Shown piece after piece: positions 1 through 35,329 of a DNA stretch of 64,000 nucleotides. Where the stretch lies: positions 17,990 to 81,989 of the forward strand of contig CACYHC010000008.1 of assembly GCA_902774145.1 (NCBI GenBank). The letters run 5' to 3'. This stretch comes from an uncultured Bacteroidia bacterium. GTDB lineage: Bacteria > Bacteroidota > Bacteroidia > Bacteroidales > UBA932. The translations under genes were made by a program, and so were the position numbers. Under the pieces are notes generated by a model that searched no databases, was not told where the DNA came from, and saw only the letters and a list, made by a program, of their open reading frames with translations. Position 1 is the stretch's first letter, and every line of letters begins with the position of its first letter.

Positions 1-3000
1 GAAGAGTTTACGCTCCGTGGATTGGTATTGAAATTCACATACAGACGCTTTGCATAGCCCAAATTATCCGCCCAGGTATGCGTCATCATCTGTTTTCCGG
101 ACCTGGCGCTGTCCTCTGTCGTCCAATGGGAGGTCGGAACGGACGATGAGCCCACCAAACGCGCAAAAAACCAACCGACAAGCCGCTTGTCCCGGCTAAC
201 CGCTGTGCTTACACCATCCGTAATGTTAATGGTGTAATAATCCTGAGCATTCGACGGTGCCGTGTAAATGGTGGAAGTATGTGCCGTACCATTAATTTCC
301 GTGTAATAGAAGCCGTATTCCACCAAATTATTGGAGGCCACCTTGTTGGTGGTAAAACTCCCGGCAATTGTCGCCGTGGTGCGATTGTCATACCATGAAG
401 AGGAGTAGGTAGTCACCATAGAGAAGGGGTGCTCCAACTCGATATCCAGCGACTTCCAGGTGCTTGCATCCGACGATCCGCTGCGTCGCACGCCAAACTT
501 GACGGTTTGCGGACCTTCCGCGGCCAGGGTAGCGGCAGAGATGGTCTGGGTTCCGGCCGCAAGGTCTTGCGTAATCCCTGTCCAGGTCGAGCCCCCGTCT
601 GTACTGTAGCCAATCTCCAGTTTGCAGTTGGCATCCGTCACGGCGATGGTCCCCTTCAGGTCTGCAGAAGTCGCCCCCTGCCACAGGTAGTCGCCGCCGC
701 TGGCACTGGGCACGGGGCAGGTGAGCGTGTAACCGTCACCGCTGGCGGGATAGGCCACGCCTTCATTGCCCGAGCCGTCTACAAAGGCGAAGTACGGCCG
801 GTAATTCACCGAAGCGTAGTCCTCATCCGGCAGACCGGTCAACGGAGAAGAGCTATAACCGCTCCCGTCGTAGATATGCTGGGTATTGTAGGCCAATACG
901 CCGGTAAATATTCCTGTTGTGGGGAACGTCTCTCCCTGGCTGTCTCCAATCTTTTTGCTGTCAGTACGCGTCCGGATTTTTCCTGCAGCACCATAAAGAT
1001 AGCCGCTGGTAAAGCGTCCGACATTATACAGCGCCGGATCCAAGTGCGCAACGCTCATATAAGCGGTTTTAGTGACGTGCCCCGTCGAGGCACTGAAGTA
1101 GTGGGCTTCCGGCGCCGTCGTCACGGTCACCACCGGGCCGGCCAGAGTCACCTGAGAACCTGTCGACGCCCGGGCAACATATTTATAATCTTTGGTCTCC
1201 GAACTTTCACCGCTGGTTCCGTCATCAAACTTACAAGCCATATGCTGCACTACTATGGGGCGGTATACATAGGTCGTGCCGGGCGTCAGGCCGGTCAGGG
1301 TAGCGCTGATGCTCTGATTGGCTCCACTGGCCAGCGTATATCCGGAAATTTCGTCTTTCGTTGCACCGCATTGGTCCAGTTTGGTGTAATTCCAGTTGCC
1401 CGGTTCGTCTGCAGCCGCATCAGTTTTGTAGATAAAGCCGTAATCGTAAGCCTGCGTCGCTCCCGCCGTTACAGTAAAGGTCGCGCTGAGTTTCACCTGC
1501 GTATCGGAAGAATACACATAGTTCAAATCCGATGATGTGCCGCTCCAGTCATAGCTTGGACGCTGGATTTTCGTCAGGACACTGGTGCACCAGCCATCGC
1601 CGGAATCGCCTAACGATTCGGTCGGGTTCATCGTACGCGGATCCGTGGTGCAGCCGAACTTGCGTACATAGGCATAGACCTCGTTTTCTTCCGTAAGACC
1701 GGGGTCGCCGCCGGAAAGTTCATCTTCATCACGCATTTTACTCCAGGGGAGCGAATTTTCCCAAACATAGGTCTGCGTAGTTCCGACCACCGTGGGCGTT
1801 ACCGGAACGGGAATGACACGGTCGTACGAATGACCTTTCGGAGCATCGGGATCGGCCGTCTCCAGCGCATGCCGGACAACGATGCCCATGTCATACGCAC
1901 CGTCGGCACCTGTCAGGGTCAGGGTGTTTTCGTACCGGCGCAGGGTGGTACTGATGACACTGAGGGTCGGTTCGGGCAGGGTCAGGGAGCGGCTTTCCTT
2001 GGAGTAATAGAGCCGGATGCGCTGAATGCGCGGACCGGACCAGTCCGTCCCGAGGTCGTGGGAAATCACATAACGGTACGCCGTGTTGTCTGCGGTGCTG
2101 TAGAGATTGTAATCGTGGCAGAAGCCGTCTGCATCCCGGGTCAGGGTGTAATCTGCATTTACGCCTGCAACGGTTGTGATGTGCGGACAGGCAGCAGCAG
2201 AATACCCCTTCATATAAGGGCTTCCTCCTTCTGTCGAGGTCCCGTCGTAATCGACAATGACGCGCAACAGGTGGCGGTTCGGCATCGCCGGGAATTCGAT
2301 GTAACTGCCTACATGGCCGCTCAGGTACAAGCCATTGGCATTCTCGGCATAGCGGAGTTTTTCCGTTTTTGTACCGGTACCTCCAGCTGCCACGGAGTGG
2401 AGACGCAGGGTATGGCCGGAGTCCTTCAGTTTTCCCTCAATATCCCAGGCGAGACTTGAACGTAAGCTCTGCAAATTGGCCGAGGGGTCCGCCTTTTCCG
2501 TCCACGGACTACCGTCGTCCGAGGTCTTCCAGGACGCAAAGGGCCAACGGAGATTGGTGGCGGTGGTGTGGTCGTCCAGACCGGGAACGGCAAAGACGAT
2601 ATCGTAGTATTCCCAGGAAAGGCCCTCGTCCACCGCCTCCGTGCCGAAGTCGGTGTATTTTCCGCGTTCAAAGGAGAAGTTTGCGCCGGTCTTGCTGCGG
2701 GAAGCCGTCTGGTCGTCCTGGCGGGTGAAGGTCAGGCGCATATTCACCACATTGCCGTATCTGCTTGTAAAATCAGCAATGGGGACATAGTAAGCCCCGA
2801 CGGGGAAAGTGGTCTCCCCTGTCGGGGGATTCAGGGTAATGCCGCTCCGACCTGAACTATACTCCGGATGATCGTCTCCCGTCTTGATATCATCAGGATC
2901 AAGATGATTGACATCGACAATGAAGGTTCCTGCCAGCGGCCGGACCGTACCGGTGAAGGTGGAATTCAGATTCGCCTCAATGAAGATTTGCTTGATGTTC

Positions 3001-3473
3001 TTATAGGCCAGCGTAAACTTGATCATCGAGCAAAGCGGCGTCATTGTGAAGGACTTGCCGGTGGCGACGACGCCGGTAATGTAGCTATCGTTGGCAAATC
3101 CGTCGGTCACCGCCGTCTGTACGGCAGGGAATGTCACGTAAAATTTATCCGTCCCCTTCCGCGTAAACGCCGAATAGGGATAGACTACGGGCCAGGAGGC
3201 GGCATCCCCCGCCTCGCCGACGAAGCGGCAGCGGGCGCCGCCGCCCACATCGGTGTTGTCAAACACGTGGACATAGGGGGAGGTGTTGTCGATGACGGCA
3301 ATCTTGTCCGTCCCCCGCCATTTGACGGCGGTGCCGTCCAGCCGCCCTTCTTCGCTGCCTTCCCCGGTTATGGGAGAAATGCTCTCCTCTTCCTGCTCCG
3401 GGGTTTCCCGGACACAGGCCGGAAGCAGGGGCAGGGCGCAGGCTAACAGGTAGACAAAAACCTTTTTTTGCAT
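1..3473 (-). CDS. Very large surface lipoprotein with fimbrillin-like N-terminus (3' end outside window)
   Basis: The reading frame is open from an ATG at 3473 to the left edge, 1,157 codons with no stop, so the C-terminus is missing. The N-terminus is a lipoprotein signal (lipobox LPAC, then VRETPEQEEE, acidic as in surface-exported lipoproteins). About residues 40-290 match the fimbrillin-like pattern seen in its neighbours (VKWRGTDKIAV, VVYPYSAF, FPAVQ). Beyond that the protein is beta-rich, with stretches like fibronectin type III or discoidin-type modules (LTGLTPGTTYVYRP; FGVRRSGSSDASTW). No catalytic motif was recognised. It starts three bases after the stop of the GH-A glycosidase gene, so it is the last visible gene of the long operon. 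A glycan-binding or adhesive cell-surface role is inferred from the lipobox and context; the domain names beyond the first are uncertain. Confidence 0.8.
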   Translation of the reverse strand, partial: MQKKVFVYLLACALPLLPACVRETPEQEEESISPITGEGSEEGRLDGTAVKWRGTDKIAVIDNTSPYVHVFDNTDVGGGARCRFVGEAGDAASWPVVYPYSAFTRKGTDKFYVTFPAVQTAVTDGFANDSYITGVVATGKSFTMTPLCSMIKFTLAYKNIKQIFIEANLNSTFTGTVRPLAGTFIVDVNHLDPDDIKTGDDHPEYSSGRSGITLNPPTGETTFPVGAYYVPIADFTSRYGNVVNMRLTFTRQDDQTASRSKTGANFSFERGKYTDFGTEAVDEGLSWEYYDIVFAVPGLDDHTTATNLRWPFASWKTSDDGSPWTEKADPSANLQSLRSSLAWDIEGKLKDSGHTLRLHSVAAGGTGTKTEKLRYAENANGLYLSGHVGSYIEFPAMPNRHLLRVIVDYDGTSTEGGSPYMKGYSAAACPHITTVAGVNADYTLTRDADGFCHDYNLYSTADNTAYRYVISHDLGTDWSGPRIQRIRLYYSKESRSLTLPEPTLSVISTTLRRYENTLTLTGADGAYDMGIVVRHALETADPDAPKGHSYDRVIPVPVTPTVVGTTQTYVWENSLPWSKMRDEDELSGGDPGLTEENEVYAYVRKFGCTTDPRTMNPTESLGDSGDGWCTSVLTKIQRPSYDWSGTSSDLNYVYSSDTQVKLSATFTVTAGATQAYDYGFIYKTDAAADEPGNWNYTKLDQCGATKDEISGYTLASGANQSISATLTGLTPGTTYVYRPIVVQHMACKFDDGTSGESSETKDYKYVARASTGSQVTLAGPVVTVTTAPEAHYFSASTGHVTKTAYMSVAHLDPALYNVGRFTSGYLYGAAGKIRTRTDSKKIGDSQGETFPTTGIFTGVLAYNTQHIYDGSGYSSSPLTGLPDEDYASVNYRPYFAFVDGSGNEGVAYPASGDGYTLTCPVPSASGGDYLWQGATSADLKGTIAVTDANCKLEIGYSTDGGSTWTGITQDLAAGTQTISAATLAAEGPQTVKFGVRRSGSSDASTWKSLDIELEHPFSMVTTYSSSWYDNRTTATIAGSFTTNKVASNNLVEYGFYYTEINGTAHTSTIYTAPSNAQDYYTINITDGVSTAVSRDKRLVGWFFARLVGSSSVPTSHWTTEDSARSGKQMMTHTWADNLGYAKRLYVNFNTNPRSVNS

Positions 3474-3476
3474 CAA

Positions 3477-4613
3477 TTACTTCTGTTTGTTCTTGGTCAG
3501 GGACTGGATGAACTGCACCTCGGTGGGGTTCCAGGGGGTGCCGTCAGGATAGAAAATGTCGTGGAACCAGACGGCGGGCTCTTCCTTGAAGGGAATGGGG
3601 TTGCCGTCCTTGTCCTTGGCGTTCCAGGGATAATGGCACTGCTGCTTGCCGTTCACCAGGCCGTAGCTGAAGCAGGCGATCTTGTTGCGCTTGAAGACCG
3701 GCAGAATCGTGTAGAAATCCGACCCGCGGGTACGCGCCATCCACTCGGAGCAGACGATAGGACGATTGAACTGCTTGAGAATCTGGATGTAGCGGGCGCA
3801 GTTCTCATAGTTGCCGTAGCAGTGGAAGGAGACCACGTCGCTGTTCGCCAGCACGAAGGCCTGGATAGGCATATTGCTGCTGCCGATGCCGGGCAGGGCC
3901 CAGATGGGCGAAGTGAGGGGCTGCGAAGGGTTCACCTCGCGCGCCCAACGGTACACCGCCTCCAGGAAGGGCAGGGTCTTGAAGGTCTTGGTGTTCTCCG
4001 GCTCGTTGTAGAGGCACCAGGCGAAGATGCGCGGGTCGTCCTTGTACTTGGTGAGCACGCACTTGAGGTATTCCTCGATGACGGGCCACTTTTCGGGGTT
4101 GTTCACCACGTCGCGGCCCGGGGAGGACATCCACACGGAGTTGTGGACGCCCGGCGCGGACTGCGGCTGGGGCCCGAGGTACGGGTTCTTGATGGTACCG
4201 CCGTTGGTGAAGAAGGTCAGCAGGAGGCGCAGACCGTGCTTGTCGGAGAGGCTCACATATTTCTCCAGGCGCTCCATGAAGCCCTCGCGGTCGTTCTGCC
4301 AGACGAGGTCGCACATAAAGAGACGAATCACATTGAAGCCCAGGCTCTGCGCCAGGCCCAGTTCACGGTCGATGAGGGCCTCGTCGAAGTACTCCGCCGC
4401 CCACATTTCCACCGGCGTCCCGGTATTCGAAGGCACGAACACGCAGCCCACGGGCCACTCCTGCTCTGCATACCAGGCATTCGCCTTTTCCTCGCTCCAG
4501 CGTTCGGCGGGCACGGGCTTGGCCGGCTCGGCGGCCTTCTTTTTGGCTTCTACATTCACCGCAGCCCCGCAGACCAGGGCCGCCATCATCAGGAAACTTA
4601 CAATCTTTTTCAT
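3477..4613 (-). CDS. Secreted GH-A clan (GH5-like) glycoside hydrolase
   Basis: A 378-residue protein with a cleavable signal peptide (about residues 1-23, ending NVEA) and one TIM-barrel domain. Two motifs fit the catalytic glutamates of clan GH-A: WCLYNEPEN (proton donor, about E204) and CSEWMAR (nucleophile, about E290). This predicts a retaining beta-glycosidase acting in the periplasm or at the surface. Proteins of this look are often annotated cellulase-family or 1,4-beta-xylanase in Bacteroidales, but the substrate cannot be read from the sequence. It lies between the sialidase-fold gene upstream (22-base gap) and the giant lipoprotein downstream (3-base gap), so it belongs to the same operon. 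Family-level call firm, exact CAZy family tentative. Confidence 0.85.
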   Translation of the reverse strand: MKKIVSFLMMAALVCGAAVNVEAKKKAAEPAKPVPAERWSEEKANAWYAEQEWPVGCVFVPSNTGTPVEMWAAEYFDEALIDRELGLAQSLGFNVIRLFMCDLVWQNDREGFMERLEKYVSLSDKHGLRLLLTFFTNGGTIKNPYLGPQPQSAPGVHNSVWMSSPGRDVVNNPEKWPVIEEYLKCVLTKYKDDPRIFAWCLYNEPENTKTFKTLPFLEAVYRWAREVNPSQPLTSPIWALPGIGSSNMPIQAFVLANSDVVSFHCYGNYENCARYIQILKQFNRPIVCSEWMARTRGSDFYTILPVFKRNKIACFSYGLVNGKQQCHYPWNAKDKDGNPIPFKEEPAVWFHDIFYPDGTPWNPTEVQFIQSLTKNKQK

Positions 4614-4634
4614 CGTATTAAAATTTATAATTTA

Positions 4635-7217
4635 TCAGAATGAGAGTTTCATCCAAGAGGTAGTTTTCCGGGAAGAGGAGGTACTGCCGGGCTCGGTGAG
4701 CAGGGACTGCAGGCCGTCCTTGCCGTCCTTCACCGCGAAATTCACCAGCAGGGCCGACCCGCTGACCGGCAGGTTCGAAAGCGGTACGCTAAACTCCACG
4801 ACCGCCAGTCCGTCGCCCTTGCTCACAGCGCTCGCCGCCCCCAGCGACGCAGACACCCAGGAGCCGCTGTAGCGGCAGCTGCTGAGTTCGCCGCCCAGGG
4901 TGGACTGCAGATACACGTCGCCGGTCGCAACGGAAGTCTTGGACGCGTTCGCCAAGTAGATGCGCACATAGTCCGATGCGGCGAGCGCGGCGTTCTCCAT
5001 TTCCACGAGGAAGTACATCACCCCGTCGGACACGCTGGCGCGCAGGGTCGCGTGCATATCGCCGGCGGAACCCAGGAACAGGGCCTGGTCCGCGGTGCTC
5101 CAGTCGCCATTGCGGCCGTCCACGGTCTCGCTGCGCGACGAAGCGGTGATGTTGTGGTTCAGGTAGTGCTGGCCAACCTCGATGAAGAAGTCCTTGCCGG
5201 CTGCGCCGCCCTCGCCGGCCGTACCCGCGAGCAGCACGTGGCCGTCCGCGAGGCAGGAACCCCAGAAGCCGTGGCCCATCGGGTAATCGGCGGAAGAAGC
5301 GCCGAACATCCGCACCGGGTCAGCGAAATGGCGGGCGGTCTCGTCGCCGAAAACGCGGTAGAAAATATTGTTGTTGTTGTAGGTAATGACGGTCTCGCCG
5401 GAGCGGAACTGCTCGATGGTGGGCGCTGCGCCCTTGTACGCCTGGTTGGCGCGGTCGGCGGGCATTACGCCGTTGGCGTCCGGACTCCCCCAGGAACCGT
5501 CAGTGTCGCTCCAGGCCATATCGACCCAGTAATTGGACTGGTCGGTGCCGCCGGTGGCATAATTCGCTTCACCCACGCCCACCAGCTGGCGGCTGCCGTT
5601 GAGTTCGATGACGCCGGGCATCTGGTCCGTATAGATTTTTGTGCCGTCCTTGGTGTCGCGCAACTGCCGGAAGGCCCAGAGGTGGTCGTCCAGCACATTG
5701 CCGGGCTGCCAGGTCATTCCGTTGTTGTCCGAATAGATGTAGGAAACGCCGCTGCTCACGATGGCTTTGTCCCACACGCCCTCCACATAAGGACGGGAGT
5801 CGGTGTAATAGACCACGACGCGGCCGGACGAGAGCACAATCGGACGGGGCTCCCAGTTGGTGCCCACATTGATGTACTGCCCGCTGCTCCAGCTCCGGCC
5901 CTCGTTGGAACTATACCTGAAGACCAGGCCGTTGTCCTTGATTTTGTGCCGGAAATCCCCGCTGCGGCGGTACGAGGCCACCACCATCAGGCGGCCGTCG
6001 GGCAGGCGCAGGGGATGCGCCCCGGCGAAAATGCGCTGGAACTTGTCGCCATAAGGGCTGGGCACGTTGTATTCGCGGGCAAAAATCTTCCGGGGACTGT
6101 GCCAGTTTTTCATATCGCTGCTTTCCACGACATAGCATTCCGTACCGGCCCAGGTATAGGTCCCGGCGTCTTCGTGGTAAATCCCATTGTGGTAGAAGAG
6201 CAGCCAGCGGTGGTCCTTCGTGCGGATGAAACGCGGATAGGAGGTCATAGGAAGTCCCGTAACGCTCTCATCCAGCTGAACATAGGAGTTACCTACATAG
6301 GTCAGCATCGAGCGGTCCGTCTGTCCCGCATGCGAATTGAGTTCCTCGTTGCCGTCATTGAGCCGCCAGTAGGGCGTCACTTCGATATGGGAATCGTCCA
6401 CGTCGCCGGCATCGGCGCCAACCTCGGTGCCGTTGGGCACATAGGTCAGGGCGGTATTGTAAATCACGCCGGCTTCCGCGGTAAAGCTCTTGGCAGAGCG
6501 GACGGTCATCAGGCGGCCCGTCACGTCGGCGATACGCAGTTGCAGGCCGGAGGCGTAGGTCCCGGCGGGCAGGGCCAGGAGCATCGGCGCACCCTGGGGG
6601 ATGCCCGACGCGCGCTCGACGGCTACGGAAGGGCTGCCCTCGGTGGCCTGCAGGGACATCGTCGAGGGCTTGAACTGGAAGGTGCCGGAGAGGATTTCCC
6701 CGCCGATAGCGGTCACCCGTACGCTCTTGATGGCGGGCTGGGGCGCGGCGCCGCTCACGGTGAAGCGGATCCAGGCCATCGCGTGCCGGAAGGAGACTTC
6801 CGGAACCTCCCCGCTCTGCTTGCCCAGCATCACGGCGGCCGCGGGATCGAAGGAGTCCGCTACATAGGCCTGCACGGCGGGCAGTTCGACGCTGCCGTAT
6901 TTGGCCAGCGCGGGACGGTAAGAGCCTGCCACAAAGCCGCTGGCGGGATAAATCGCATAGTAGGGGGAATTCACGACCGGCAGGGTGAAGGAGGCCGACG
7001 AGGGGTTGTCCGCCTTGATGCTGATGCCGGTGGAGGCCTGGCCGTTCACGACAATCGCGTCCCCGGACTGCCAAATCACCTTGGTACCGCTGAGCGCCGT
7101 CCGGGACGCCTCCATCGAGCAGGAAAGCGTCATCGTCTCCGGATTTTCCGGGACTACCCGGCTACAAGCCGCAAAAAGCGCCGTCAATGCCAGCGCAGAC
7201 AGGACAAATCTATTCAT
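4635..7217 (-). CDS. Fimbrillin-like / sialidase-fold / CBM9-like three-domain lipoprotein
   Basis: The start is placed at 7217, not at the longest possible start 75 bases upstream, because MNRFVLSALALTALFAACS is a clean lipoprotein signal. The product is 860 residues. Residues about 20-265 are fimbrillin-like (VIWQSGDAIVVNGQ, YYAIYPASGF, DSFDPAAAVMLG). Residues about 290-690 are a beta-propeller with Asp boxes (SSNEGRSW, SDNNGMTW). About 690-860 resemble the CBM9-like sugar-binding fold (VDGRNGDWSTADQALFLGS). The propeller shares YPRFI, NWEPRPIVLSSG, YYTDS, TDQMPGVIEL and FRSGETVITY with four neighbours. It overlaps the upstream paralogue by 8 bases. Probably a surface-tethered exo-acting glycosidase; true sialidase activity is not shown, since the classical FRIP motif is replaced by YPRF. 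Confidence 0.85.
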   Translation of the reverse strand: MNRFVLSALALTALFAACSRVVPENPETMTLSCSMEASRTALSGTKVIWQSGDAIVVNGQASTGISIKADNPSSASFTLPVVNSPYYAIYPASGFVAGSYRPALAKYGSVELPAVQAYVADSFDPAAAVMLGKQSGEVPEVSFRHAMAWIRFTVSGAAPQPAIKSVRVTAIGGEILSGTFQFKPSTMSLQATEGSPSVAVERASGIPQGAPMLLALPAGTYASGLQLRIADVTGRLMTVRSAKSFTAEAGVIYNTALTYVPNGTEVGADAGDVDDSHIEVTPYWRLNDGNEELNSHAGQTDRSMLTYVGNSYVQLDESVTGLPMTSYPRFIRTKDHRWLLFYHNGIYHEDAGTYTWAGTECYVVESSDMKNWHSPRKIFAREYNVPSPYGDKFQRIFAGAHPLRLPDGRLMVVASYRRSGDFRHKIKDNGLVFRYSSNEGRSWSSGQYINVGTNWEPRPIVLSSGRVVVYYTDSRPYVEGVWDKAIVSSGVSYIYSDNNGMTWQPGNVLDDHLWAFRQLRDTKDGTKIYTDQMPGVIELNGSRQLVGVGEANYATGGTDQSNYWVDMAWSDTDGSWGSPDANGVMPADRANQAYKGAAPTIEQFRSGETVITYNNNNIFYRVFGDETARHFADPVRMFGASSADYPMGHGFWGSCLADGHVLLAGTAGEGGAAGKDFFIEVGQHYLNHNITASSRSETVDGRNGDWSTADQALFLGSAGDMHATLRASVSDGVMYFLVEMENAALAASDYVRIYLANASKTSVATGDVYLQSTLGGELSSCRYSGSWVSASLGAASAVSKGDGLAVVEFSVPLSNLPVSGSALLVNFAVKDGKDGLQSLLTEPGSTSSSRKTTSWMKLSF

Positions 7218-11345: not shown

Positions 11346-11346
11346 A

Positions 11347-22216: not shown

Positions 22217-22621
22217 TCAGATAAGATATTTGTCAAGTTCCGCATCCTGGATGTCCGCCGCATTGAGCGTGCTGCTGGACACCACGAAATAGACGGGGAT
22301 GGTTTTACTTCCGTTGCTCACTTCCACCCGGACGGCACGCACGATGTCGAGCGTGTTGGTCTGGGCCTGGCATTTGATGTACTGGTTGTTCTGTCCGGAA
22401 GTCCGGTCGAGGGTCAGCCAGTCACCGCCGGCCACGATCCGGACGGTCCAGGAGCCGGTGGAATACACCGGGAAGAAGAAATCCAGCGGGGCCTCCTTGA
22501 CCTGCGCCCAGGTAATATTGTACCGGGTGTCGTTCACGGCCAGGTCGACCTTGGAGACATAGGGCTTGTAGCAGGAGACGAGCGCAAAGAGCGCCGCGAT
22601 AAGTGCGATAGTCTTTTTCAT
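22217..22621 (-). CDS. Small BACON-like lipoprotein
   Basis: A 134-residue lipoprotein (LFALVSC). After the lipid anchor it has one BACON/Ig-like sandwich: FFFPVYSTGSWTVRI, GGDWLTLDRTSGQNNQ and VRVEVSNGSKTIPVYFVV are the typical strands (cold-shoulder Trp, GDWLT, then N-G-S-K). Such single domains are thought to bind glycans or mucin or act as spacers. It lies between susD (6-base gap) and the DUF5689 gene (5-base gap), so it is part of the outer-membrane uptake complex set. Function by context only. Confidence 0.8.
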   Translation of the reverse strand: MKKTIALIAALFALVSCYKPYVSKVDLAVNDTRYNITWAQVKEAPLDFFFPVYSTGSWTVRIVAGGDWLTLDRTSGQNNQYIKCQAQTNTLDIVRAVRVEVSNGSKTIPVYFVVSSSTLNAADIQDAELDKYLI

Positions 22622-24298: not shown

Positions 24299-24302
24299 AC
24301 GA

Positions 24303-27300: not shown

Positions 27301-27359
27301 AAGGAGACGGAGGAGATCAGCAGTGCCGCCAGAACGGCGATGAGTTTGAACTTCTTCAT
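24303..27359 (-). CDS. SusC/RagA family TonB-dependent outer-membrane transporter
   Basis: A 1,018-residue protein with a signal peptide ending SVSFA. Residues about 22-100 are a carboxypeptidase-regulatory-like domain (VSGVIRDDAGQPLPGAAV, GTVTDLDGKYTI). Next come the characteristic linker DELVVIAYGTAKKSDLTGAV and the plug (about 110-215, with IQIRGARSISAGNEPLIVVDGV). The rest is the 22-strand barrel, ending in an aromatic-rich strand (YVFNINLSY). It imports oligosaccharides across the outer membrane with energy from TonB-ExbBD, in partnership with the SusD downstream. Length and motifs are typical and nothing is missing. It follows three fimbrillin/beta-helix lipoprotein genes in the same operon, an unusual position, since susC is most often first. 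Confidence 0.96.
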   Translation of the reverse strand: MKKFKLIAVLAALLISSVSFAQKVKVSGVIRDDAGQPLPGAAVIDKQNSKNGTVTDLDGKYTITVSANSFLEISSLGFSTVLESVDGRTQIDVVLKPESTNLDELVVIAYGTAKKSDLTGAVATVDMKSVQDVPATSIENALQGRIAGAEFVSSTGEPGSSASIQIRGARSISAGNEPLIVVDGVVDAVSSLSDINPSDIKSISVLKDVSSTSLYGSRGANGVILITTNTPTSSNFAVRLKASAGVSHLAGSLDIMNASEFAEYCNMQRYFDSSLAGKALTKENLYFTDPWSMGEGTDWIKTLSQVGSYQDYNLSLSGGTKVTRVEASLGFNDTRGVVIGSGFRRYTGRVLVESHPFKWLRLGVRFSYTHRDQDFTTAKITGTDSNAAIYLAPFLNKDDTWNSYGSEIASGGSVFNNPYIVAMQTTNKKDMNNLNVMPYMRLFLGKFVQFVTKFSYTQQNDKRFYYAPSTLPVSQRYMRGGQAVAETYIGKTYISESTLTFNRTWKKAHTLDLLAGFTAEHKNIDWTYINGTGYLDDEVTAKNLASLLDERCFDFRDYETLRTRLSVLGRVNYNYKKRYYVTLTARADGASNFAESRKWGFFPAAAVRWNLRNEPFMKKAKWLDDLSIRVSAGRSGNDSISPYLSLQTLTAERTGWLFGSVQPISYYNTRLANSNLTWETTTSYNVGLNFAAFKERIMLEIDAYRSRTTDLLLAMKTNRATGYDTYFTNLGSTVNTGIEATLTTRNISKRRFSWSTTFTISHNTQLVENVGEDRLIGTFYNPRNSTQPLYGYRNGYPVNSLWGYQYAGVWHTQEEIDRNAVTHTYVSDAVPSLGGTKFADLNHDGIMDQNDMIYQGCSDPIIYGGLQNVFTWKNLVLKVYFSYSLGGKIYNIWQFWNGGGSRAYNKYRFMLDSWHPVRNPNSDIPRAGYDDFIGSDRMIYDASFIRFKELSLSYRINMPTRVKWLRSIVLGISAENLYLWKNYIGFDPDVSTETGARRIDNASYPRPRSYVFNINLSY

Positions 27360-27368
27360 ATCTTTCGC

Positions 27369-29696
27369 TTATTTGATGGTGATGTTGCCGACGATATAGC
27401 CGAGGCTGTTGGAGATGGCCACATTGTCCTCCGTTACCGGGAGTCCGGCAATCGTTCCGCTGAAATAGTTCGTGCCTTCCAGGGTGAGCGTGGCGTAGCC
27501 CTGCGTCTGCACGCCGATCTTGAGGTTCGTATTCTTGGCCACCAGGCCCACGAAGCCGGCACCGAAGATATTGGACGCACCGGTGCGGTCATAGCGCAGG
27601 GTGATGTCCAGGTCCTTGAAGAGGGCGTCCCGGCCGACAAATCCGGCCGCACCACCCGCACAGCCCATATACTGGGCGGAATAGATGTTGTTCTTGGACA
27701 GGGAGATGCCCACGTCGGCCTTGCAGTTCGTGACATTGGCCTGTCCGACCGCGCCGAAGAGGCCGCCGGTACAGTCCGCACGGGCGCCGGAACCGACCCG
27801 GATGTCGCAGACACTACTGCAGTTGCGGATGTCGGCCCAGTCGTTATAGGACGCCTGCAGGGCCCCCACGAGACCGCCCACGTACACCTGTCGCGCACCG
27901 CTCATGCTGTTCGACAGCGTCGCGGAGTAGATGCTCACGTCGATGTTGCCGGTATTGCGGCAGTTCTCCATCTCGATGTAGAAGCCTTCGGCCGCCGTGC
28001 CGTTGTTGGCGCCGCTGAAGGTGACATAGAAGTCGGGACCGTCGCTGGCGAGGATGTTGCGCCCCAGGATGCCGCCCACGCAATAGCCGTAATTGGCATT
28101 GGTGTGCTTCTCATCCTGCCAGTAGGTGATGTTCCCGCTGTTGACGCAGTTCCGGAAGGTGCTGTGCACCCCGTCGGAGGTGCCCTGATAGACAAAACCG
28201 GCGATGCCGCCGAGCGCGAACTTGGTCAGCGAGAAAATGCCGGTTGCCATTCGCTTGATGACGATGTTGCCGCTGTTCTCGCAGTTCTCGAACGAACCGC
28301 TGAAGAGCTCCTCGCCGAGGTTGCGCTGCGCCCGTGCGCAGATGCCGCCGCCATACACCGTGCGGTTGGCGGTGATGGTCATCGAAACGGAGATGTCACC
28401 GGTGTTCTTGGAGTCCTTGATGAGACCGGCATTGTCGGTCACCAGACCGGCCAGGATAATGTTCTGGTCCACGCCGGAGAGGTCCACGGCCATTGCGTTC
28501 TCGCAGTTCTCGATGGTACCGCGGTTGAACGCCGCCAGGTTGCCGGTGCCGCGGTCCGCCACGGAACTGGCCGCTACGCGGGTACCGCCCACGGTGAGGT
28601 TCTTCACGGTAGCGCCCTGCTCAATGAGGGTAAAGAGCGCCTCTGTGGCACGGGCCCGCTTGATGGCGTGGCCGCCACCGTTGAACACCACGCCGGAAGG
28701 CAGGGCGTTGATGGGCGTAAGGTCGCCGCCGTAGGAAATGTCGGCGACGAGGGAGATTTCCCCGGTGTCCGGATTGATCCAGTGTTCGTAGTCCCCCGCG
28801 TTCATCGCGAGCGCGAACTCGTTCCAGGAATCAATGCCGTCGATGAGCTTGGTGTTGTTGGGCTTGAAGGCAATCTGCTTCAGCGTAACCACCACGCCCG
28901 CAGGGACTTCCGTCTCTTCTTTCCAATCGCAGAGCATATTGCCGCCCGGGCCGTCCAGCAGGAGGGAGAAACCCTCGGGATACTTCCCGGCCGGGACGCT
29001 GATGCAGAAATACTGCGGCGTATCTTCGGAAAGGACGACGCCTTCGGGGGGCATCGCCAGCAGCAGGGAGGAACTCCCCTGCCTGGCCGTCAGTTCCCCG
29101 CTGCGGGTGTCCAGTGTAAAGTCGCCGGCGAGGGGCGCGGCGGCCGATGCGCTCGATACGGTGATGCTGCGGATATTCTCCCCGTCGGACGAGCCCTTGA
29201 CCAGGGGCAGACGCACCACGCCGCAGAGGTTCTGCAGCGAGGTGGAAGCATTTTCCGTACTCCCGTACATCACCGCGGAGAAATCCGCGAAGCTGTCCGG
29301 CGTCCAGGCCTGGGCGACAGGCAGGGTAAGCTGCGCGACGCCGTCCGCGTCCATGGACATACAGAAAATACTGGGATACACGATATGGTAGGGGGCGCTC
29401 ACGCCTTCCACCGTAAAGAAGGCGCGCGTCACTTGCGCTTCCAGCCCGTAGAGGGTGGAAGACTTGACTCCGTTCACACAGATGCGGTCGCCGTTGCTCC
29501 AATAGACCGGATACACGTTCCCCTGCAGGGGGCCCAGCGTGGTCCTGGAATCAAACGAGGAACCCAGCTCCAGCGTTACGGGCGGGAGCGGGGGTTCCGG
29601 CTGCGGGTCCGTGCCGGGGCCCGCGGGTTGCAGGCCCTGGCACGCACACAGCATTGCCGCAAAAAGGGACGGAAGGAAGGATATCCTTGCGTTCAT
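27369..29696 (-). CDS. Fimbrillin-like lipoprotein with GLUG-type beta-helix repeats
   Basis: A 775-residue lipoprotein (AAMLCAC). Residues about 35-300 carry a fimbrillin-like domain (VYWSNGDRICVNGVKSS, YHIVYPS, LPVAQAWTPDSF). The remainder is a right-handed parallel beta-helix made of GLUG-like repeats with recurring NCxNxGxI and GGI/LxG units (ENCENSGNIVI, FRNCVNSGNITYW, ENCRNTGNIDVSI, VGGLVGAL). Beta-helices of this sort act as rigid surface stalks or ligand-binding spines. It is the third such protein in a row, between the second paralogue and susC, with gaps of 6 and 9 bases. A role in presenting or binding the glycan at the surface is inferred. No catalytic site seen. Confidence 0.82.
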   Translation of the reverse strand: MNARISFLPSLFAAMLCACQGLQPAGPGTDPQPEPPLPPVTLELGSSFDSRTTLGPLQGNVYPVYWSNGDRICVNGVKSSTLYGLEAQVTRAFFTVEGVSAPYHIVYPSIFCMSMDADGVAQLTLPVAQAWTPDSFADFSAVMYGSTENASTSLQNLCGVVRLPLVKGSSDGENIRSITVSSASAAAPLAGDFTLDTRSGELTARQGSSSLLLAMPPEGVVLSEDTPQYFCISVPAGKYPEGFSLLLDGPGGNMLCDWKEETEVPAGVVVTLKQIAFKPNNTKLIDGIDSWNEFALAMNAGDYEHWINPDTGEISLVADISYGGDLTPINALPSGVVFNGGGHAIKRARATEALFTLIEQGATVKNLTVGGTRVAASSVADRGTGNLAAFNRGTIENCENAMAVDLSGVDQNIILAGLVTDNAGLIKDSKNTGDISVSMTITANRTVYGGGICARAQRNLGEELFSGSFENCENSGNIVIKRMATGIFSLTKFALGGIAGFVYQGTSDGVHSTFRNCVNSGNITYWQDEKHTNANYGYCVGGILGRNILASDGPDFYVTFSGANNGTAAEGFYIEMENCRNTGNIDVSIYSATLSNSMSGARQVYVGGLVGALQASYNDWADIRNCSSVCDIRVGSGARADCTGGLFGAVGQANVTNCKADVGISLSKNNIYSAQYMGCAGGAAGFVGRDALFKDLDITLRYDRTGASNIFGAGFVGLVAKNTNLKIGVQTQGYATLTLEGTNYFSGTIAGLPVTEDNVAISNSLGYIVGNITIK

Positions 29697-29702
29697 AAAG
29701 GT

Positions 29703-32432
29703 TTAATTAAATACTTTGTTGCCGCCGCCGTAGCACATATCGGCGGTCACTTTCTCTCCGTTGAGGGACGGGGTGCCATAGATGTCGATTTTATGCGTCT
29801 CTTCGGTGGAAGAGCGGTGCACGGACTTCGCTCCGGTTACGCCCGTATAGCCCACGAACTGGGAATCGTTCCGGATGGACGCAGAGCAAAGCAGCCCCGT
29901 ATTCTCCGTCATATTGGCATTGACGGGAAGATCAGCAGTCCCCATCTGGGAGTACTTGACAATCCAGCCGATGGTGGCGCCCAGCGTACCGCGGTAGGCC
30001 GCGGGTTCACCGTTCATTTCCAGTTCCGTAGCCTCATAGGTGACGTCGCACTGGTCCACCTGCTCCACCTTGGTGTAGCAGCCACCGCCCAGGATACCGC
30101 CGGCCGCGATGGAACCGCTGGCGTTGGAACCCACCTTGATGATACCGTCCTGCTGTCCGCGGACCACGGCATAGTGCGCATCGGAAGTACCGGAGGTATT
30201 GACGCGGCCCAGACCGTAAGTAAAGCCGGCGATACCGCCCACATAGTTCACACGGGCACCGGTATTTTTGTCACCGGAGGGCGTAGGATTGGGCGAAGCC
30301 ACTTCCAGGGTACCGGTATTCTTGCAGTTCCTGCGAATCACCAGGAATACACCGTTCATCTCCGAGGTGGTCTTGGTGAGCACCAGGGAACCGCCTTTGG
30401 TTCCGTTCTCGTTGAGTGCGCAGCCAAGGATACCGCCCACAAAGGCCGGGCCGGCCGTGCTCGTCGCCGCATCCGACTTCTGCTCCCAGAAGGTCAGGTG
30501 GCCGTCATTGGTGCAGCCGTCGACGGTCGTATAGTCGTGGCCCTCCGATTTGGCATAGGCACCCACGCGGATGTCCGCGATAATGCCACCCACGCTGCTG
30601 CGGTAGATAAGGGGGTTCTCCGTCTTGACCAGGCTCAGGTCCCCGTAGTTCGCGCAAGCGTAGAAACGGCCGCAGTTGGTGGCCACGTTGCCGTCACCGT
30701 AACCGGAGATACCGCCCAGATGATAGGTCTTGCCCTTGGCGGCAGGCGTGGCGGTGAAGGTCAGCACGCCCTTGGTGTCGGCCGAGCCTTCCTCGCCGTT
30801 CACACAGCGGGTAAGATTGCCGCCACCGAAGATGGTCACGCCGGCCACACAGCCGCCGTTCGAACTTGCGACGGAGAAATTGCCGGTGTTGGTGAAGTCC
30901 TGCAGGGTGGTACGGGTCACATAGAACGGCGCCACGATGGCCTTCTGGTTGACGGCCCCCGCAAAGGTGACGTCACCGGTATTGACGCAGTCCTTCACGA
31001 CACCGTCGTTGCTGTAGGCGAAGGGAAGGACATACATATCCTTGGTAGTGATATCCGAAGGCGTAATGCTGAAGTTGCTGGCCTGGATGCAGTTCTGCAT
31101 CGTCGCGCCGGCATTGATATTCCGGACGAGACCATAGTAGTAGACAATGGCGTCCACGGTAGGAACAGCCGTAACTTCATAAGCAGCATTCACGCCGTCA
31201 ACGACGGCGCCGTCATCGAGCCGCAACGCCAGGGAAGCCGTGCCCCAGCCACTGGTGTTGATGGAAGGACGCACGCCGCCGATGTTGAGGTTCCGCACCG
31301 TACCACTGATATAGGTAAAAAGAGGAACCGCCATCGTGGTGGTGGTGACGCTGTGTCCGTTGCCGTTCAGCACGCCGGAGAAAGTCGTGTTGGCCACGCC
31401 ATCCGTGGTACCGCCGAAGCGCATCAGGGAGGTGGTATTGAGGTCGGCGAGAAGGTTGTAGTCCCCGCTCTCATCCTGGAATTCGTTGCAGAAACCGGCC
31501 ACGGTGATCTGTGCGGCCAGGGAGTTCCAGTCCGCCTCGGTGTAGATGCCGGGGCCTTCGTAAGTCATTGTGCCGTCGTAGGCCACCGTCGTGGGATAGA
31601 CCGTCGCAGGCTGCGCGGTGAAGGCCTTGTTGGAAACGATTTCCTGACAGTGGCCCTCGGTGTCGAGGATGAAGAGGTTGATACCCCGCGTATAGGTCTG
31701 CGCAGGTATGGCGATGAACAGGTCCGTCCCCTGGGCGACGCCGGCGCCGCAGTCGAGGGTGATCGAACTGCCGTCCTTAGGCTCACGGGTGAGGGTGCAG
31801 CCGTCTGCGCTGAACTTGGCCAGGAAGGCGCCGCTCATCGACTGGCGGCCGTAATCCTGATCGGTCACGCCCATCGTAATATTGGAACGCACGCGCACGG
31901 ACTTGATGGCCGCCGCGCTGCTGCCGCCGCTGATGTTGAGCTTCAGGAAGGCCATCGCACTGTGGAAGCCCACTTCTCCCTCCGTGGCATAGCCGAGCAT
32001 CACGCCCGCCGCCGGGTCATAGCTGCCCGCGGTGTAGGCCTGCACGGAGGGAAGGTTCACCATGACGGTGTCCGAGTGGTAATCGGAGGCCAGGGCCGCC
32101 GGATAGACCGCGCAGTAGGGATACTCCACGGCACCGCCGATGTCGAAGGTCGCGCCGGAGGGGTGACCCGGGGTGATGGTGATGGCGGTGGAGTTGCAGC
32201 CGTTGATCTGGATGGCGTCCGCCGCCTGCCAGTACACGCTGTACGAAGAACCCTCATGGGCGCCGAAGTAGGTCTTGGCATCGTCCGAGGTATTCAGGGA
32301 TGCGCTGACGACGGTGATGCCGTCTTCACGGATACCGTCTTTCCCGGCGAGCTTTTCGCTCAGCTCGGATTCGTTCACACAGGAGGCGAGCAGCAAAAGT
32401 GCTCCGCTGAAAGCAAAAAGAATCTTTTTCAT
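29703..32432 (-). CDS. Fimbrillin-like lipoprotein with GLUG-type beta-helix repeats
   Basis: The start is set at 32432 (MKKILFAFSGALLLLASC, lipobox LASC); the frame runs 41 codons further up through the small peptide gene but that part is a shadow. The product is 909 residues: fimbrillin-like about 25-330 (VYWQAADAIQINGCNSTAI, YPAALASDY, LPSVQAYTAGSYDPAAGVMLG), then beta-helix repeats (VLNGNGHSVT, LGGISGYGDGN, CKNTGTLEVAS). An AGGAGG stretch lies 10 bases before the ATG, unusual for Bacteroidetes, which seldom use strong Shine-Dalgarno sites. The 45-residue peptide gene ends 17 bases upstream. Surface scaffold or glycan-binding role by inference. Confidence 0.82.
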   Translation of the reverse strand: MKKILFAFSGALLLLASCVNESELSEKLAGKDGIREDGITVVSASLNTSDDAKTYFGAHEGSSYSVYWQAADAIQINGCNSTAITITPGHPSGATFDIGGAVEYPYCAVYPAALASDYHSDTVMVNLPSVQAYTAGSYDPAAGVMLGYATEGEVGFHSAMAFLKLNISGGSSAAAIKSVRVRSNITMGVTDQDYGRQSMSGAFLAKFSADGCTLTREPKDGSSITLDCGAGVAQGTDLFIAIPAQTYTRGINLFILDTEGHCQEIVSNKAFTAQPATVYPTTVAYDGTMTYEGPGIYTEADWNSLAAQITVAGFCNEFQDESGDYNLLADLNTTSLMRFGGTTDGVANTTFSGVLNGNGHSVTTTTMAVPLFTYISGTVRNLNIGGVRPSINTSGWGTASLALRLDDGAVVDGVNAAYEVTAVPTVDAIVYYYGLVRNINAGATMQNCIQASNFSITPSDITTKDMYVLPFAYSNDGVVKDCVNTGDVTFAGAVNQKAIVAPFYVTRTTLQDFTNTGNFSVASSNGGCVAGVTIFGGGNLTRCVNGEEGSADTKGVLTFTATPAAKGKTYHLGGISGYGDGNVATNCGRFYACANYGDLSLVKTENPLIYRSSVGGIIADIRVGAYAKSEGHDYTTVDGCTNDGHLTFWEQKSDAATSTAGPAFVGGILGCALNENGTKGGSLVLTKTTSEMNGVFLVIRRNCKNTGTLEVASPNPTPSGDKNTGARVNYVGGIAGFTYGLGRVNTSGTSDAHYAVVRGQQDGIIKVGSNASGSIAAGGILGGGCYTKVEQVDQCDVTYEATELEMNGEPAAYRGTLGATIGWIVKYSQMGTADLPVNANMTENTGLLCSASIRNDSQFVGYTGVTGAKSVHRSSTEETHKIDIYGTPSLNGEKVTADMCYGGGNKVFN

Positions 32433-32448
32433 TGTCTTGTCCTCCTGT

Positions 32449-32586
32449 TTAGACCCAATCAAAATCAAACTCTTCCTCCGACACATTGTCGATGGATGCA
32501 CAAAGCACCTCCTGCTCCCCATAGGAGAGCATGGCGGTGATACGGGGAGCCACATACGTGGCGTTGGTTTTGGTGTACATAGTCAT
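32449..32586 (-). CDS. 45-residue acidic peptide, second of a related pair
   Basis: A complete 45-codon frame (ATG at 32586, TAA at 32449-32451) fills the gap between two fimbrillin/beta-helix genes. The peptide has a basic, polar N-terminus (MTMYTKTNATYVAPRI), a short hydrophobic centre ending VLCASIDNV, and a strongly acidic, aromatic tail EEEFDFDWV. The same layout (Y-x-x-P, L-C-x-S, then V, then E-E-E-D/F-x-F-D-W) and the same length are found in the peptide at 35146-35283, and both end 17-18 bases before the ATG of a fimbrillin/beta-helix lipoprotein. That parallel arrangement is the main support for it being real. An ATG two codons in (32580) is an alternative start. Small peptides ending in acidic-aromatic residues are often seen in Bacteroidales surface loci, with no known function. 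Confidence 0.65.
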   Translation of the reverse strand: MTMYTKTNATYVAPRITAMLSYGEQEVLCASIDNVSEEEFDFDWV

Positions 32587-32604
32587 TATGTTGTTATGAT
32601 ATTG

Positions 32605-35127
32605 TTATTCAGGGAATGCGACGAATTTCACATTGCCGGCCCTGCGCAGGTAAGTACCGCTGGTCGTGGCCTTTCCGTAGAAATTCCAGGAAGATGCCTG
32701 ATAACCGGAACTCAAGGAAGCAGCAGCTTCCGTAGTGCCGTCCGAATGTTTGACGGCTACATTGTAACATTGCGCAACTTGATTTACCGTATAGCTTTCA
32801 AAAATAAAGTTCGGGGTCACGCTCTTCCCATCGATAGCCCCGGCGGCATTCTTGGAAGAACCTCCGGTAATCCCCATTACACCCTCACCCAGCAAAGTAA
32901 GCCCGTTCAGGCCGCTGGCATCCACCTTCATCGTAATGGTGGAAGTAGGGACCGCGATGGATCTTTTGACCACCCAGCCCACAAAAGCGGACACACCGCC
33001 CACCTTCAGGGGCGTACGGTTGGGATTCTCGGATTTGGCAAAGACCGTATTGGAAGCCCGGAGATAATCGAACTTCAAATAACCGCCGCCACCGACAATT
33101 GCGCCTACCGCTTCCGAACCCGTTTGGGAGCCAATCTTAATGGTAGCATTGTTATATCCCCGGATTACGGGATAATAGTCACTGTTCGTCGCGACCTCAG
33201 GGTTATTGCTTCCCATTGCAAAGCCGACCACACCACCGACATAGGTCTGGCGGGCACCGCTCATTTTGGCGCTCAGCGGCTGAATCGTATTCCCGGTACT
33301 GACATCCAGGGTACCCTTGTTCTCACACTGGTCGATGATAAAGTAATAACCCTGGTCGTTGTCCCCCACATACGGACAACTGGAAGAGTACAGCGTACTC
33401 ATGCCCAGAATACCGCCCAGGCCCATCGCCAGCTGGTCGCCGCTGGACGTTCCGGATCTTTCCTCCCAAAAGGTGATGGCGCCGCGGTTTTCACACTGGA
33501 CAAAGCGGGTGTAGACGCCCGTGTAGTTTTCACCCGGAATACCCTGGGTCACCGAAGCGCAGATACCGCCGATGCCGCATTGAGCAAGGCACTGAACGCC
33601 GGTTCCGGAAGCATTTTTGATGATGGTGATATTTCCGGAGTTAGTGCAGCGGATAAAGTCTCCGCAGGCACTGTTGTGATTATTCCCACAGGCAAAACCG
33701 CCCAACTTAAAGACTCGGTTGGCGTCGGAAAGAAGGGTGATGTTCATATTGCCCGCATTCTCGCAATCCCGGATCAAACCACCGTTGGAGGGGGCAAAAC
33801 CGGCAAAATACAAATCGCGGTGCGAAGCCTCGGTCTCGGTGTACGTGGTATTGATTGCGTTGACGCAATGGTCGATGAGGCCTCCGCGGAAAATACGGAC
33901 AGCAAAGGCCGCATTGCCCCAGGAACCGTATTCCGTGCAGGAGCCGGCGAGCGTCAGGTTCTTGACGGTGCCCGCCTCGCTTGCGGTGCCCAGCCAGGCA
34001 ATGATCGGGACACTTGAAGCCGTCTGGGTAATCGTGTGGTTGTTCCCGTCCAGGGTCTCCACGAAATAAATATTGTTCGTCGCACCGGGATAGCTGGCAT
34101 AGTTGGAGCCGTGACGGTGCAGGTTGCCTTCTACGGTAAAATCTTTGTAGAGGTTGATTTCCCCGTCCGTCCCGCGCCAGGCGCTGGCGTCTTCCTGCTG
34201 AGTGGCGTCCGAGGTAAACTTGGACTCATCTGCGCACACAAAGGACTTCCAGTCCGTCTCACAGTAGATGCCGGGACCCTGGTAAGTGTCCAGGTTGGAC
34301 AGGGTCGCCGACTTGGCGGAGAGGATACCGGCTTTCCCGGCCAGCGGAGCCGCAAGCGTGCGAAGAATCTGGTACTTGTCGTCGGTGGTGACGACGAAGA
34401 AATTCAGGCCCGCGGTATAGTCCTTGGGGGCGATGGCGAGAATCACGGCATCACCCGCGGCAATACCCTCGCCGCAGTCCGCGGTCGTGGTATTGAAGTT
34501 CCAGCCGTCGTGGTGGTTGCTCAGCGTACGCGCGGTGAAATGGGCGTCCATCCAGCCGCGGACGCGGATACCGTTGTTGGCCATCACGCGGACGCTCTTG
34601 ACATCCTGGTCGAAGGTCAGCTTGATGTAAGCCACCGCGTGCGAGAAGGTGAGGCCGTTCGCATCGCCCTCGCCGATCATAATGGCGGCGGCCGGATCGA
34701 ACGAACCGGCGGTCACGTTCTGTTCGGCGGGAATGATGACGGTAGCCTGGTCGTTCTCAGGGTCATCCGAATCGGCCACATAAGCGGAGGCCGGATAAAC
34801 GGCACGGTAGGGCGCCTCCAGCACCGCTTCGAAGGCGAAGGTCGCAGCCTTCCCATTGATGCTTTCCGCCGTCAGCGGAAGGGAAGTTACGCCGTTTACC
34901 ACGATCTGGTCGCCGACAGACCAGTTGACGGTCACGCCGTCGAGGGTGGTTTTCTGTTCTTCCACGGAAGCCGTCAGGAAGAAAACCGGTTCTCCGGCGA
35001 GTTCCGTATTTTCTCCCGCGGCGGCGGGATCCTCCAGTTGCTCCAGTTCTTTCTGGCAAGAGACAAAAGCGAGTGTGACCACGGCCAGACCCGCAAGCAA
35101 GATTGATTTTTTCATTGTCGTTTTCAT
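32605..35127 (-). CDS. Fimbrillin-like lipoprotein with GLUG-type beta-helix repeats, first of three
   Basis: An 840-residue lipoprotein (LAFVSC followed by QKELEQLED). ATG codons at 35127 and 35115 are both possible starts; either gives a good signal. Residues about 40-300 are fimbrillin-like (VNWSVGDQIVVNGV, YRAVYPASAYVADSD, AGSFDPAAAIMIGEG, FSHAVAYIKL). Later residues hold repeated beta-helix units (DCENAGNMNI, RCTNSGNITI, QCENRGAITFWEE, LGGILGMS, QCENKGTLDVS). It shares the sentence-like order MSGARQTYVGGVVG with MSGARQVYVGGLVG of the third paralogue, evidence of recent common origin. It is the first large gene of the operon behind the HTCS terminator, preceded by its own 45-residue peptide gene. 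Confidence 0.83.
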   Translation of the reverse strand: MKTTMKKSILLAGLAVVTLAFVSCQKELEQLEDPAAAGENTELAGEPVFFLTASVEEQKTTLDGVTVNWSVGDQIVVNGVTSLPLTAESINGKAATFAFEAVLEAPYRAVYPASAYVADSDDPENDQATVIIPAEQNVTAGSFDPAAAIMIGEGDANGLTFSHAVAYIKLTFDQDVKSVRVMANNGIRVRGWMDAHFTARTLSNHHDGWNFNTTTADCGEGIAAGDAVILAIAPKDYTAGLNFFVVTTDDKYQILRTLAAPLAGKAGILSAKSATLSNLDTYQGPGIYCETDWKSFVCADESKFTSDATQQEDASAWRGTDGEINLYKDFTVEGNLHRHGSNYASYPGATNNIYFVETLDGNNHTITQTASSVPIIAWLGTASEAGTVKNLTLAGSCTEYGSWGNAAFAVRIFRGGLIDHCVNAINTTYTETEASHRDLYFAGFAPSNGGLIRDCENAGNMNITLLSDANRVFKLGGFACGNNHNSACGDFIRCTNSGNITIIKNASGTGVQCLAQCGIGGICASVTQGIPGENYTGVYTRFVQCENRGAITFWEERSGTSSGDQLAMGLGGILGMSTLYSSSCPYVGDNDQGYYFIIDQCENKGTLDVSTGNTIQPLSAKMSGARQTYVGGVVGFAMGSNNPEVATNSDYYPVIRGYNNATIKIGSQTGSEAVGAIVGGGGYLKFDYLRASNTVFAKSENPNRTPLKVGGVSAFVGWVVKRSIAVPTSTITMKVDASGLNGLTLLGEGVMGITGGSSKNAAGAIDGKSVTPNFIFESYTVNQVAQCYNVAVKHSDGTTEAAASLSSGYQASSWNFYGKATTSGTYLRRAGNVKFVAFPE

Positions 35128-35145
35128 TGTTTACAGGTTTAACGG

Positions 35146-35283
35146 TCAACTCTCCCAGTCGAATTCAGCGTCTTCCTCTTCGAGGTCGACGACGCGGTAA
35201 GAGTCACAGAGAATGGGGACGGTCCTCCTGGGAATCGCCCTCATTTGCGGAGTCAGATACTCCAGCTCGGTTTTTTTGCTCAT
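35146..35283 (-). CDS. 45-residue acidic peptide at the head of the operon
   Basis: A 45-codon frame (ATG at 35283, TGA at 35146-35148; an ATG three codons further upstream at 35292 is also possible). The peptide begins MSKKTELEYLTPQMRAIPRR, continues with TVPILCDSYRVV and ends EEEDAEFDWES. It matches the peptide at 32449-32586 in length, in the L-C-x-S centre and in the acidic F-D-W tail. It lies first after the HTCS terminator, 18 bases before the fimbrillin/beta-helix gene. It is therefore the leader cistron of the whole glycan locus. No signal peptide is apparent. A secreted or post-translationally processed product is possible but unproven. Confidence 0.65.
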   Translation of the reverse strand: MSKKTELEYLTPQMRAIPRRTVPILCDSYRVVDLEEEDAEFDWES

Positions 35284-35329
35284 TTTTCGCATTTATGGTT
35301 TTTTAGTATTACAATTTCCACCATCAGGT

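Follow-up and report, generated by a model that had tools for sequence, protein, structure and literature searches.

A 64,000-nucleotide stretch of DNA from an uncultured Bacteroidales bacterium (the window; assembly GCA_902774145.1, contig CACYHC010000008.1) contains an ordinary polysaccharide utilization locus (PUL) frame that surrounds an unusual, expanded clade of enzymes related to glycoside hydrolase family GH93. Judging from sequence, we consider it on balance probable that this PUL deploys the clade as exo-glycosidases, two at the cell surface and three in the periplasm, on an acetylated and perhaps arabinofuranose-bearing glycan. The five proteins in question are propellers a (4635..7217), b (7210..9045), c (11347..13065), d (13071..14768) and e (14769..16583), all encoded on the minus strand. 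The window lies within contig C8 of a 2.23-Mb genome assembly of 76 contigs that is 96.9% complete. Because its nearest named relatives, including the goat rumen locus L009 (77% identity to propeller b), are metagenome-assembled genomes (MAGs) of rumen Bacteroidales, the source species is presumably a rumen-type Bacteroidales.

A preliminary description of this DNA reported five paralogous propellers with Asp boxes, and they are present where it placed them. The other four are 53, 31, 29 and 22% identical to propeller b, and e is the most divergent of the five. Propellers a and b are GH93-like lipoproteins, a with a fimbrillin-like domain N-terminal to the propeller; c, d and e are GH93-like proteins with signal-peptidase-I type leaders. 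Invariant among the five (propeller b numbering) are Y79, R81, W207-E208-P209, T224-D225-S226, D283, M285-P286, E302 and S363-G364-E365. The motifs reported earlier largely hold: TDS, (T/M)D(Q/G)MP, SGE and WEP occur in all five, but the longer form WEP-(6-8)-SG occurs in only three, propeller c having NG and propeller e TG at the SG site. Similarly, the N-terminal YPRI/YPRF is better written Y-x-R, which is found in all five as YPRF (twice), YPRI, YPRA and YGRI.

The preliminary description gave a CBM9-like tail to four of the propellers; all five carry one. The tail in propeller e was detected (E 5.9e-34) by a profile from which that protein and the four orthologues nearest to it, though not its more distant kin, had been excluded. 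A profile of the propeller family matches the solved xylanase CBM9 domain 1i82 (E 2.6e-14), and this match, with the tail in five of five, relates the C-terminal domain to CBM9. Pfam gave no CBM9 match at 0.01, and NCBIfam gave the five propellers no name, with one weak match far under its cut-off.

Conservation extends well beyond the window. We aligned 87 hand-picked rows, including four window proteins (propeller a was left out); fragments, repeat entries for one and the same protein and most proteins extended far at the N-terminus were omitted. In propeller d numbering, Y70, R72, W187, E188, M260 and E277 are invariant, and R149, P189, D258, P261, G328 and E329 nearly so; propeller c has His in place of the Arg that most homologues have at position 149.

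Two families with this fold, GH33 and GH93, had to be told apart. Single-sequence searches of the PDB returned sialidase matches of the Asp-box type and did not find GH93. With the 87-row profile, the GH93 structures 3a71 (7e-13), 2ydt (6e-10) and 2w5n (9e-10) each matched as one collinear stretch from the first blade, and the GH33 matches were mostly split into two or three stretches (among the matches listed, 60 of 123). When Asp boxes were masked in 12 sequences, the search gave five PDB sequences up to E 10. The top one was GH93 3a71, with YPR, WEP and GMP in register; the others were unrelated by name, save for a short stretch of sialidase L (E 1.1). The part from WEP to SGE was also tried alone (64 of the 87 rows) and did not discriminate: sialidases came top and 3a71 was 50th, because one Asp box was left in the query.

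Pairwise profile comparison with hhalign separates one GH93 protein from two with FRIP-like motifs once the Asp boxes are masked. The GH93 reference was a Catenovulum protein assigned to GH93 from its sequence (3.6e-29 to 3a71), and the other comparison proteins were the two that, in eight loci (L098-L105), combined a FRIP-like motif with two or more Asp boxes, which makes them GH33 by motif only. With Asp boxes masked, the family profile scored 84.9% with Catenovulum GH93 versus 2.8% and 6.6% with the two FRIP/YRIP proteins. Outside the Asp boxes, the propellers are therefore related in sequence to GH93, as the masked hhalign comparison shows and the masked PDB search, with 3a71 first at E 0.11, suggests, and lack similarity to the two motif-defined GH33 proteins.

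The conserved residues fit this relation. E188 and E277 of propeller d align with a glutamate pair of Catenovulum GH93 that corresponds to 3a71 residues 151 (the Glu of WEP) and 223 (the end of VYE), 72 residues apart. The GH93 active site is numbered E170/E242/Y337 in a figure legend of a review [PMC11813348], and the spacing of E170 and E242 is the same; the PDB title of 2ydp names E242A. The first Glu was also aligned directly to 3a71 in the masked search. Both glutamates are invariant in the 87 rows and in the five paralogues. The alignments to GH93 stop ahead of the Tyr337 region. Taken together, these findings indicate that the five propellers are probably a clade related to GH93 in which the glutamate pair is conserved, and that they are probably not GH33 sialidases. 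The same pair makes it very improbable that the propellers are mainly glycan-presenting binding proteins without catalysis. The CBM9-like tails and the many lipoproteins in the gene run would suit such a role, but the pair is invariant across several phyla and three of the five propellers have no lipobox by eye.

Structure comparison supports the fold and does not choose between the families. With the model of propeller d (mean predicted local distance difference test score, pLDDT, 95.2) as query, Foldseek confirmed the "sialidase-fold" of the preliminary description, which had proposed a search of structure databases; plain PDB searches gave mostly Asp-box stretches. Among the best 50 of 1030 matches, template modeling (TM) scores normalized by target were 0.73 for 5hx0, 0.68 for 2ydp (GH93) and 0.67 for 1eus (GH33).

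Several observations weigh against our interpretation. By Foldseek E-value sialidases lead, that of Micromonospora being best, and by TM score GH93 and GH33 are level and 5hx0 is higher. Unmasked hhalign barely discriminates, with 98.5% for GH93 and 97.1 and 97.2% for the FRIP/YRIP proteins, and the masked comparison with GH93 spans just 98 columns (186-298). In the masked PDB search, 3a71 matches weakly (E 0.11), in an alignment that does not extend to the second Glu. Other points concern the substrate and the proposed cell biology. AraA and XylA were not found in the 96.9% complete source genome. AraA is present in 10 of 25 genomes of the same genus and in none of the four that carry the propellers (one-sided chance ~0.11; three of these four are just 72-80% complete). 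Pfam recognized no classical arabinanase or arabinofuranosidase among the genes of the window's run, and neighbors of GH43, GH51 or GH172 type come mostly from distant relatives. Cell locations were read off signal sequences by eye, and the model of the DUF5107 protein described below (mean pLDDT 66) was too poor for use.

Some of these points would fit an alternative in which the five are GH33-type sialidases, or Kdn- or Kdo-releasing relatives, and the PUL consumes nonulosonic acids of the host or of plants. Sialidases lead the unmasked profile search of the PDB, many of their chains outscoring those of GH93, a sister locus on contig C37 encodes a SASA esterase domain, and the genome has a NanE homologue. 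The preliminary description doubted plain sialic acid as the substrate and cited a lack of NanA/NanE-type genes, which applies to the window only: the NanE homologue lies elsewhere, on the 9-kb contig C56. None of the eight open reading frames (ORFs) called on C56 matches the window's PUL genes, however, and NanA was not found above cut-off anywhere in the genome. The only NanA match scores 87.8 of 382 bits and is DapA-like by eye, beside a DapB-like gene. Together with Y-x-R in place of FRIP in all five proteins and the masked comparison, this bears out the doubt about sialic acid and leaves the sialidase alternative quite improbable.

A second alternative is that the propellers are ordinary GH93 exo-1,5-alpha-L-arabinanases and the locus an arabinan PUL. 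They have the glutamate pair and the YPR, WEP and GMP motifs in common with GH93, and related loci contain GH43, GH51-type and GH127 genes. However, the sequences are very distant (20% identity to the Catenovulum GH93 over 198 aligned columns in unmasked hhalign), and five diverged paralogues seem excessive for linear arabinan. Plain L-arabinan is further disfavored because AraA and XylA were not found in the source genome and no carrier among the four has a detected AraA. We regard this alternative as unlikely, although less so than the sialidase one. A sugar isomerase-like gene on contig C36 (G000:C36:1432-2895) was tried as the missing pentose isomerase and rejected, since it is absent from three of the four carriers. 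This gene is weakly related to models of AraA, FucI and sulfoquinovose isomerase and has genes for a transporter and a ROK-type kinase close by. For the GH93-related clade, we propose that the substrate is likely an acetylated glycan bearing arabinofuranose or a similar furanoside, and simple L-arabinan is improbable.

The propeller family is broadly distributed. In the source genome, 14 matches are spread over six contigs, a pair of them within one protein. At L084:1925-5167, two copies of the propeller domain lie in a single chain. Across 41 genomes, the 87-row profile found some match in 25. Matches above 200 bits occur in four of the 25 same-genus genomes (G000, G002, G004 and G009, the source included), and the best match in each remaining genome of the 41 is below 60 bits, which we took as other Asp-box or CBM proteins. 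On GTDB contigs, 67 of 103 matched stretches were confirmed, in 60 loci. The phyla include Bacteroidota, Pseudomonadota, Actinomycetota, Verrucomicrobiota, Planctomycetota, Armatimonadota, Abditibacteriota and Caldisericota, and there is also a Clostridia MAG.

In a tree of 100 rows (a quick method, no bootstrap, rooted on one long-branch outgroup), the window propellers sort into four deep groups, with a and b together (a/b) and c, d and e each in a group of its own. The d and c groups have members in loci L009, L010, L011 and L012, and the e group in L009, L010, L012 and L025 (the L011 assembly). The b group includes L009 and L010, copies from L011 and L012 adjoin the a/b pair, and the a group includes L009 only. 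Gene order is conserved as well: DUF5107-e-d-c-SGNH-b is kept in L009, L010 and L012 (= G009; L012 and G009:C39 have equal identities to the window proteins and were counted as one genome), and d-c-SGNH-b is kept in L011, whose contig begins there. Because the five propellers form four deep groups that recur in related genomes, a glycan with several related terminal sugars, as first proposed, is plausible.

The tree also indicates that tandem arrays of the family arose more than once, since the four tandem propellers at L020:5719-12904, in the Clostridia MAG obtained from goat rectum, cluster with one another, and L057 and L068 have their arrays in a different part of it. The presence of the L020 propellers in a Clostridia MAG could reflect transfer or a binning error. 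We speculate that the propellers could be a glycosidase family in its own right, a sister of GH93, which the Asp boxes disguise as sialidase-like and whose substrate is not L-arabinan. Tandem duplication, occurring repeatedly in gut lineages that are not related, would then have produced groups of exo-enzymes for stripping a glycan that ends in several different residues. This extension is a serious possibility, though we hold it with less conviction than our main interpretation.

The locus has the anatomy of a PUL. Sixteen tightly packed genes occupy 3-35127 of the minus strand; with the starts used, neighboring genes are -56 to +49 nt apart. The close packing toward the left edge had been noted before, with a count of about 18. 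Likelier starts for two of the genes, 24298 for SusD and 32432 for the gene at 29703, each yield a lipobox by eye and would make the spacings +4 and ~172 nt. The terminal gene overruns the left edge by 646 nt and ends at C8:17344. A terminator-like hairpin of the intrinsic type (35373-35342, minus strand, 14 pairs with a T-rich tail) separates the run from the gene for the hybrid two-component regulator (HTCS). A scan of 32300-35500 gave ten terminator-like sites versus 4.1 expected, some of them intragenic, and no minus-strand sigma-70-like promoter was found in this stretch, the only one scanned for promoters. Pfam matches identify a SusC/SusD pair, a linked regulator and enzymes. The gene run, SusC and SusD, the HTCS and the hairpin thus support a PUL, and transcription as a single unit is a prediction. 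The PUL itself, called undescribed at first, stands, but its propellers are no orphans: they belong to a GH93-related clade with both Glu positions.

All genes of the locus are on the minus strand. SusC, SusD, HTCS, DUF4886, DUF5107 with TPR, and DUF5689 matches exceed the Pfam cut-offs; BACON, TIM-barrel and most BNR matches fall below. The run begins with a lipoprotein at 32605..35127, followed by lipoproteins at 29703..32555 and 27369..29696 (the latter with GLUG repeats), all with a shared N-terminal domain. Next are the SusC-like TonB-dependent transporter (24303..27359), the SusD-like glycan-binding lipoprotein (22628..24358), a small BACON-like lipoprotein (22217..22621, below the curated cut-off) and a DUF5689 lipoprotein with a weak BACON match (19851..22211). 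The protein of 16576..19845 combines DUF5107 (PF17128, 2.9e-42; mutarotase-like by eye) with TPR and has a signal-peptidase-I type leader by eye. Between propellers c and b lies a DUF4886 lipoprotein (9042..11345), by eye an SGNH-type hydrolase and a probable O-acyl esterase; its N-terminal domain is common with propeller a. Beyond propeller a are a GH5/GH2-like TIM barrel (3477..4613) with NEP and SEW motifs by eye and a signal-peptidase-I type leader, and a large lipoprotein (3..3476, lipobox by eye) truncated at the left edge. The barrel scores 19 bits with PF02836, under the cut-off of 21; a member of its cluster in L049 has a Pfam Cellulase match (3.6e-11). By reading, the N-terminal lipoprotein domain is common to six genes, and with the copy in propeller a as query five carriers were detected, itself included (4635, 9042, 27369, 29703 and 32605). 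Lipoboxes and signal-peptidase-I type leaders were assigned by eye, with the usual rules for such signals. Outside the run are the HTCS (35401..39345, Pfam) and an aldose 1-epimerase (39324..40469; PF01263, 4.9e-57; NCBIfam GalM below cut-off) whose gene overlaps the HTCS gene start. Far from the locus, two minus-strand genes at 58256-60033 are what we take by eye to be an AbiEii/AbiEi-type pair.

Several partner genes recur with the propellers. We counted single-linkage clusters in 67 sources (66 loci and the window), many of them truncated and some near-duplicates (L027/L028, L064/L065). SusC was found in 26, SusD in 24, HTCS in 20, the TIM barrel in 16, DUF5107 in 13 and GH2 in 9. The single-linkage propeller cluster was dropped from these counts, as it mixes in GH43, sulfatase and lipoproteins. 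DUF5107 is present in all four carriers versus five of the 21 other same-genus genomes (~0.01 one-sided, the genomes not being independent). Among 14 control genomes, this Pfam family matched in E. coli only, presumably in YphG.

Some related loci encode enzymes of arabinose type. L035 has two arabinofuranosidase genes and a DUF2961 gene, which we take to be of GH51 and GH172 type. Pfam identifies GH43 in L066 and L058, and just above cut-off in L107, the G009 copy of the window gene run. In the source genome, a GH127-like gene, three propeller genes and a GH43-like gene lie close together on contig C13 (L085/L086, 11669-23331); SusC/SusD were not recognized by eye among the listed ORFs of L085/L086. 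A second related locus on C37 (L091, G000:C37:219-18759) encodes a lipoprotein, an HTCS, DUF5107-TPR, the SASA esterase (whose GH43 part is below cut-off), a GH43-like lipoprotein and two TIM barrels. In G004, an e-like gene is adjoined by GH127, GH2 and epimerase genes.

From these features we infer catalysis, cell location, import, regulation and substrate as follows. The glycan would be bound and imported by SusC and seven lipoproteins including SusD, and its acyl groups would be removed by the SGNH-type hydrolase. Five non-redundant, CBM9-tailed propellers may act as retaining exo-glycosidases, a and b as surface lipoproteins, and c, d and e in the periplasm alongside the GH5-like barrel and the DUF5107 protein. 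We postulate that the freed sugar is handled by the aldose epimerase and that an intermediate is sensed by the HTCS.

Known systems resemble parts of this locus. GH93 exo-1,5-alpha-L-arabinanases (Abnx, 3a71; Arb93A, 2w5n/2ydt) have the propeller fold, YPR/WEP/GMP and the glutamate pair in the same order. In contrast to them, the window propellers are only ~20% identical to the bacterial GH93 compared, have DQMP or DGMP for PGMP, carry a CBM9-like tail and sit in SusCD-type PULs, in an organism without detected AraA. GH33 sialidases have in common the Asp boxes and the fold, but the window propellers lack FRIP, and masking the Asp boxes reduces their similarity to the two FRIP/YRIP proteins to 3-7%. 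HTCS-controlled PULs of Bacteroidetes likewise group the genes for SusC, SusD, an HTCS, lipoproteins and enzymes into a single run; unlike the usual ones, this PUL has an enzyme set dominated by one expanded propeller family and has a recurring GH5-like barrel (16/67) and DUF5107-TPR protein (13/67). PDB 5hx0 (Dfer_1899 of Dyadobacter, function not assigned) has the top target-normalized TM score among those 50 matches, but its profile match is at least one blade out of register (82-227 versus 170-312). A literature search of limited scope found no paper under the locus tag Dfer_1899, none tying BNR-repeat proteins to uncharacterized PULs and none on sialidase-like propellers in Bacteroidetes PULs; the sole paper it found on DUF5107 concerned stramenopiles. 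One table lists zero GH93 for B. xylanisolvens [PMC4769552], and another paper has a background mention [PMC9655821].

We suspect that proteins of this kind are easily mislabelled as sialidases on account of their Asp boxes, since BNR models and sialidases top their matches. Such labels would wrongly assign the use of sialic acid to rumen and gut bacteria. Our results instead point to a broad GH93-related clade that spans several phyla, is tandem-expanded in several gut lineages and has recurring partners. For the bacterium studied here, they give a defined set of enzymes, two candidate catalytic residues and a route toward the glycan that this PUL may target.

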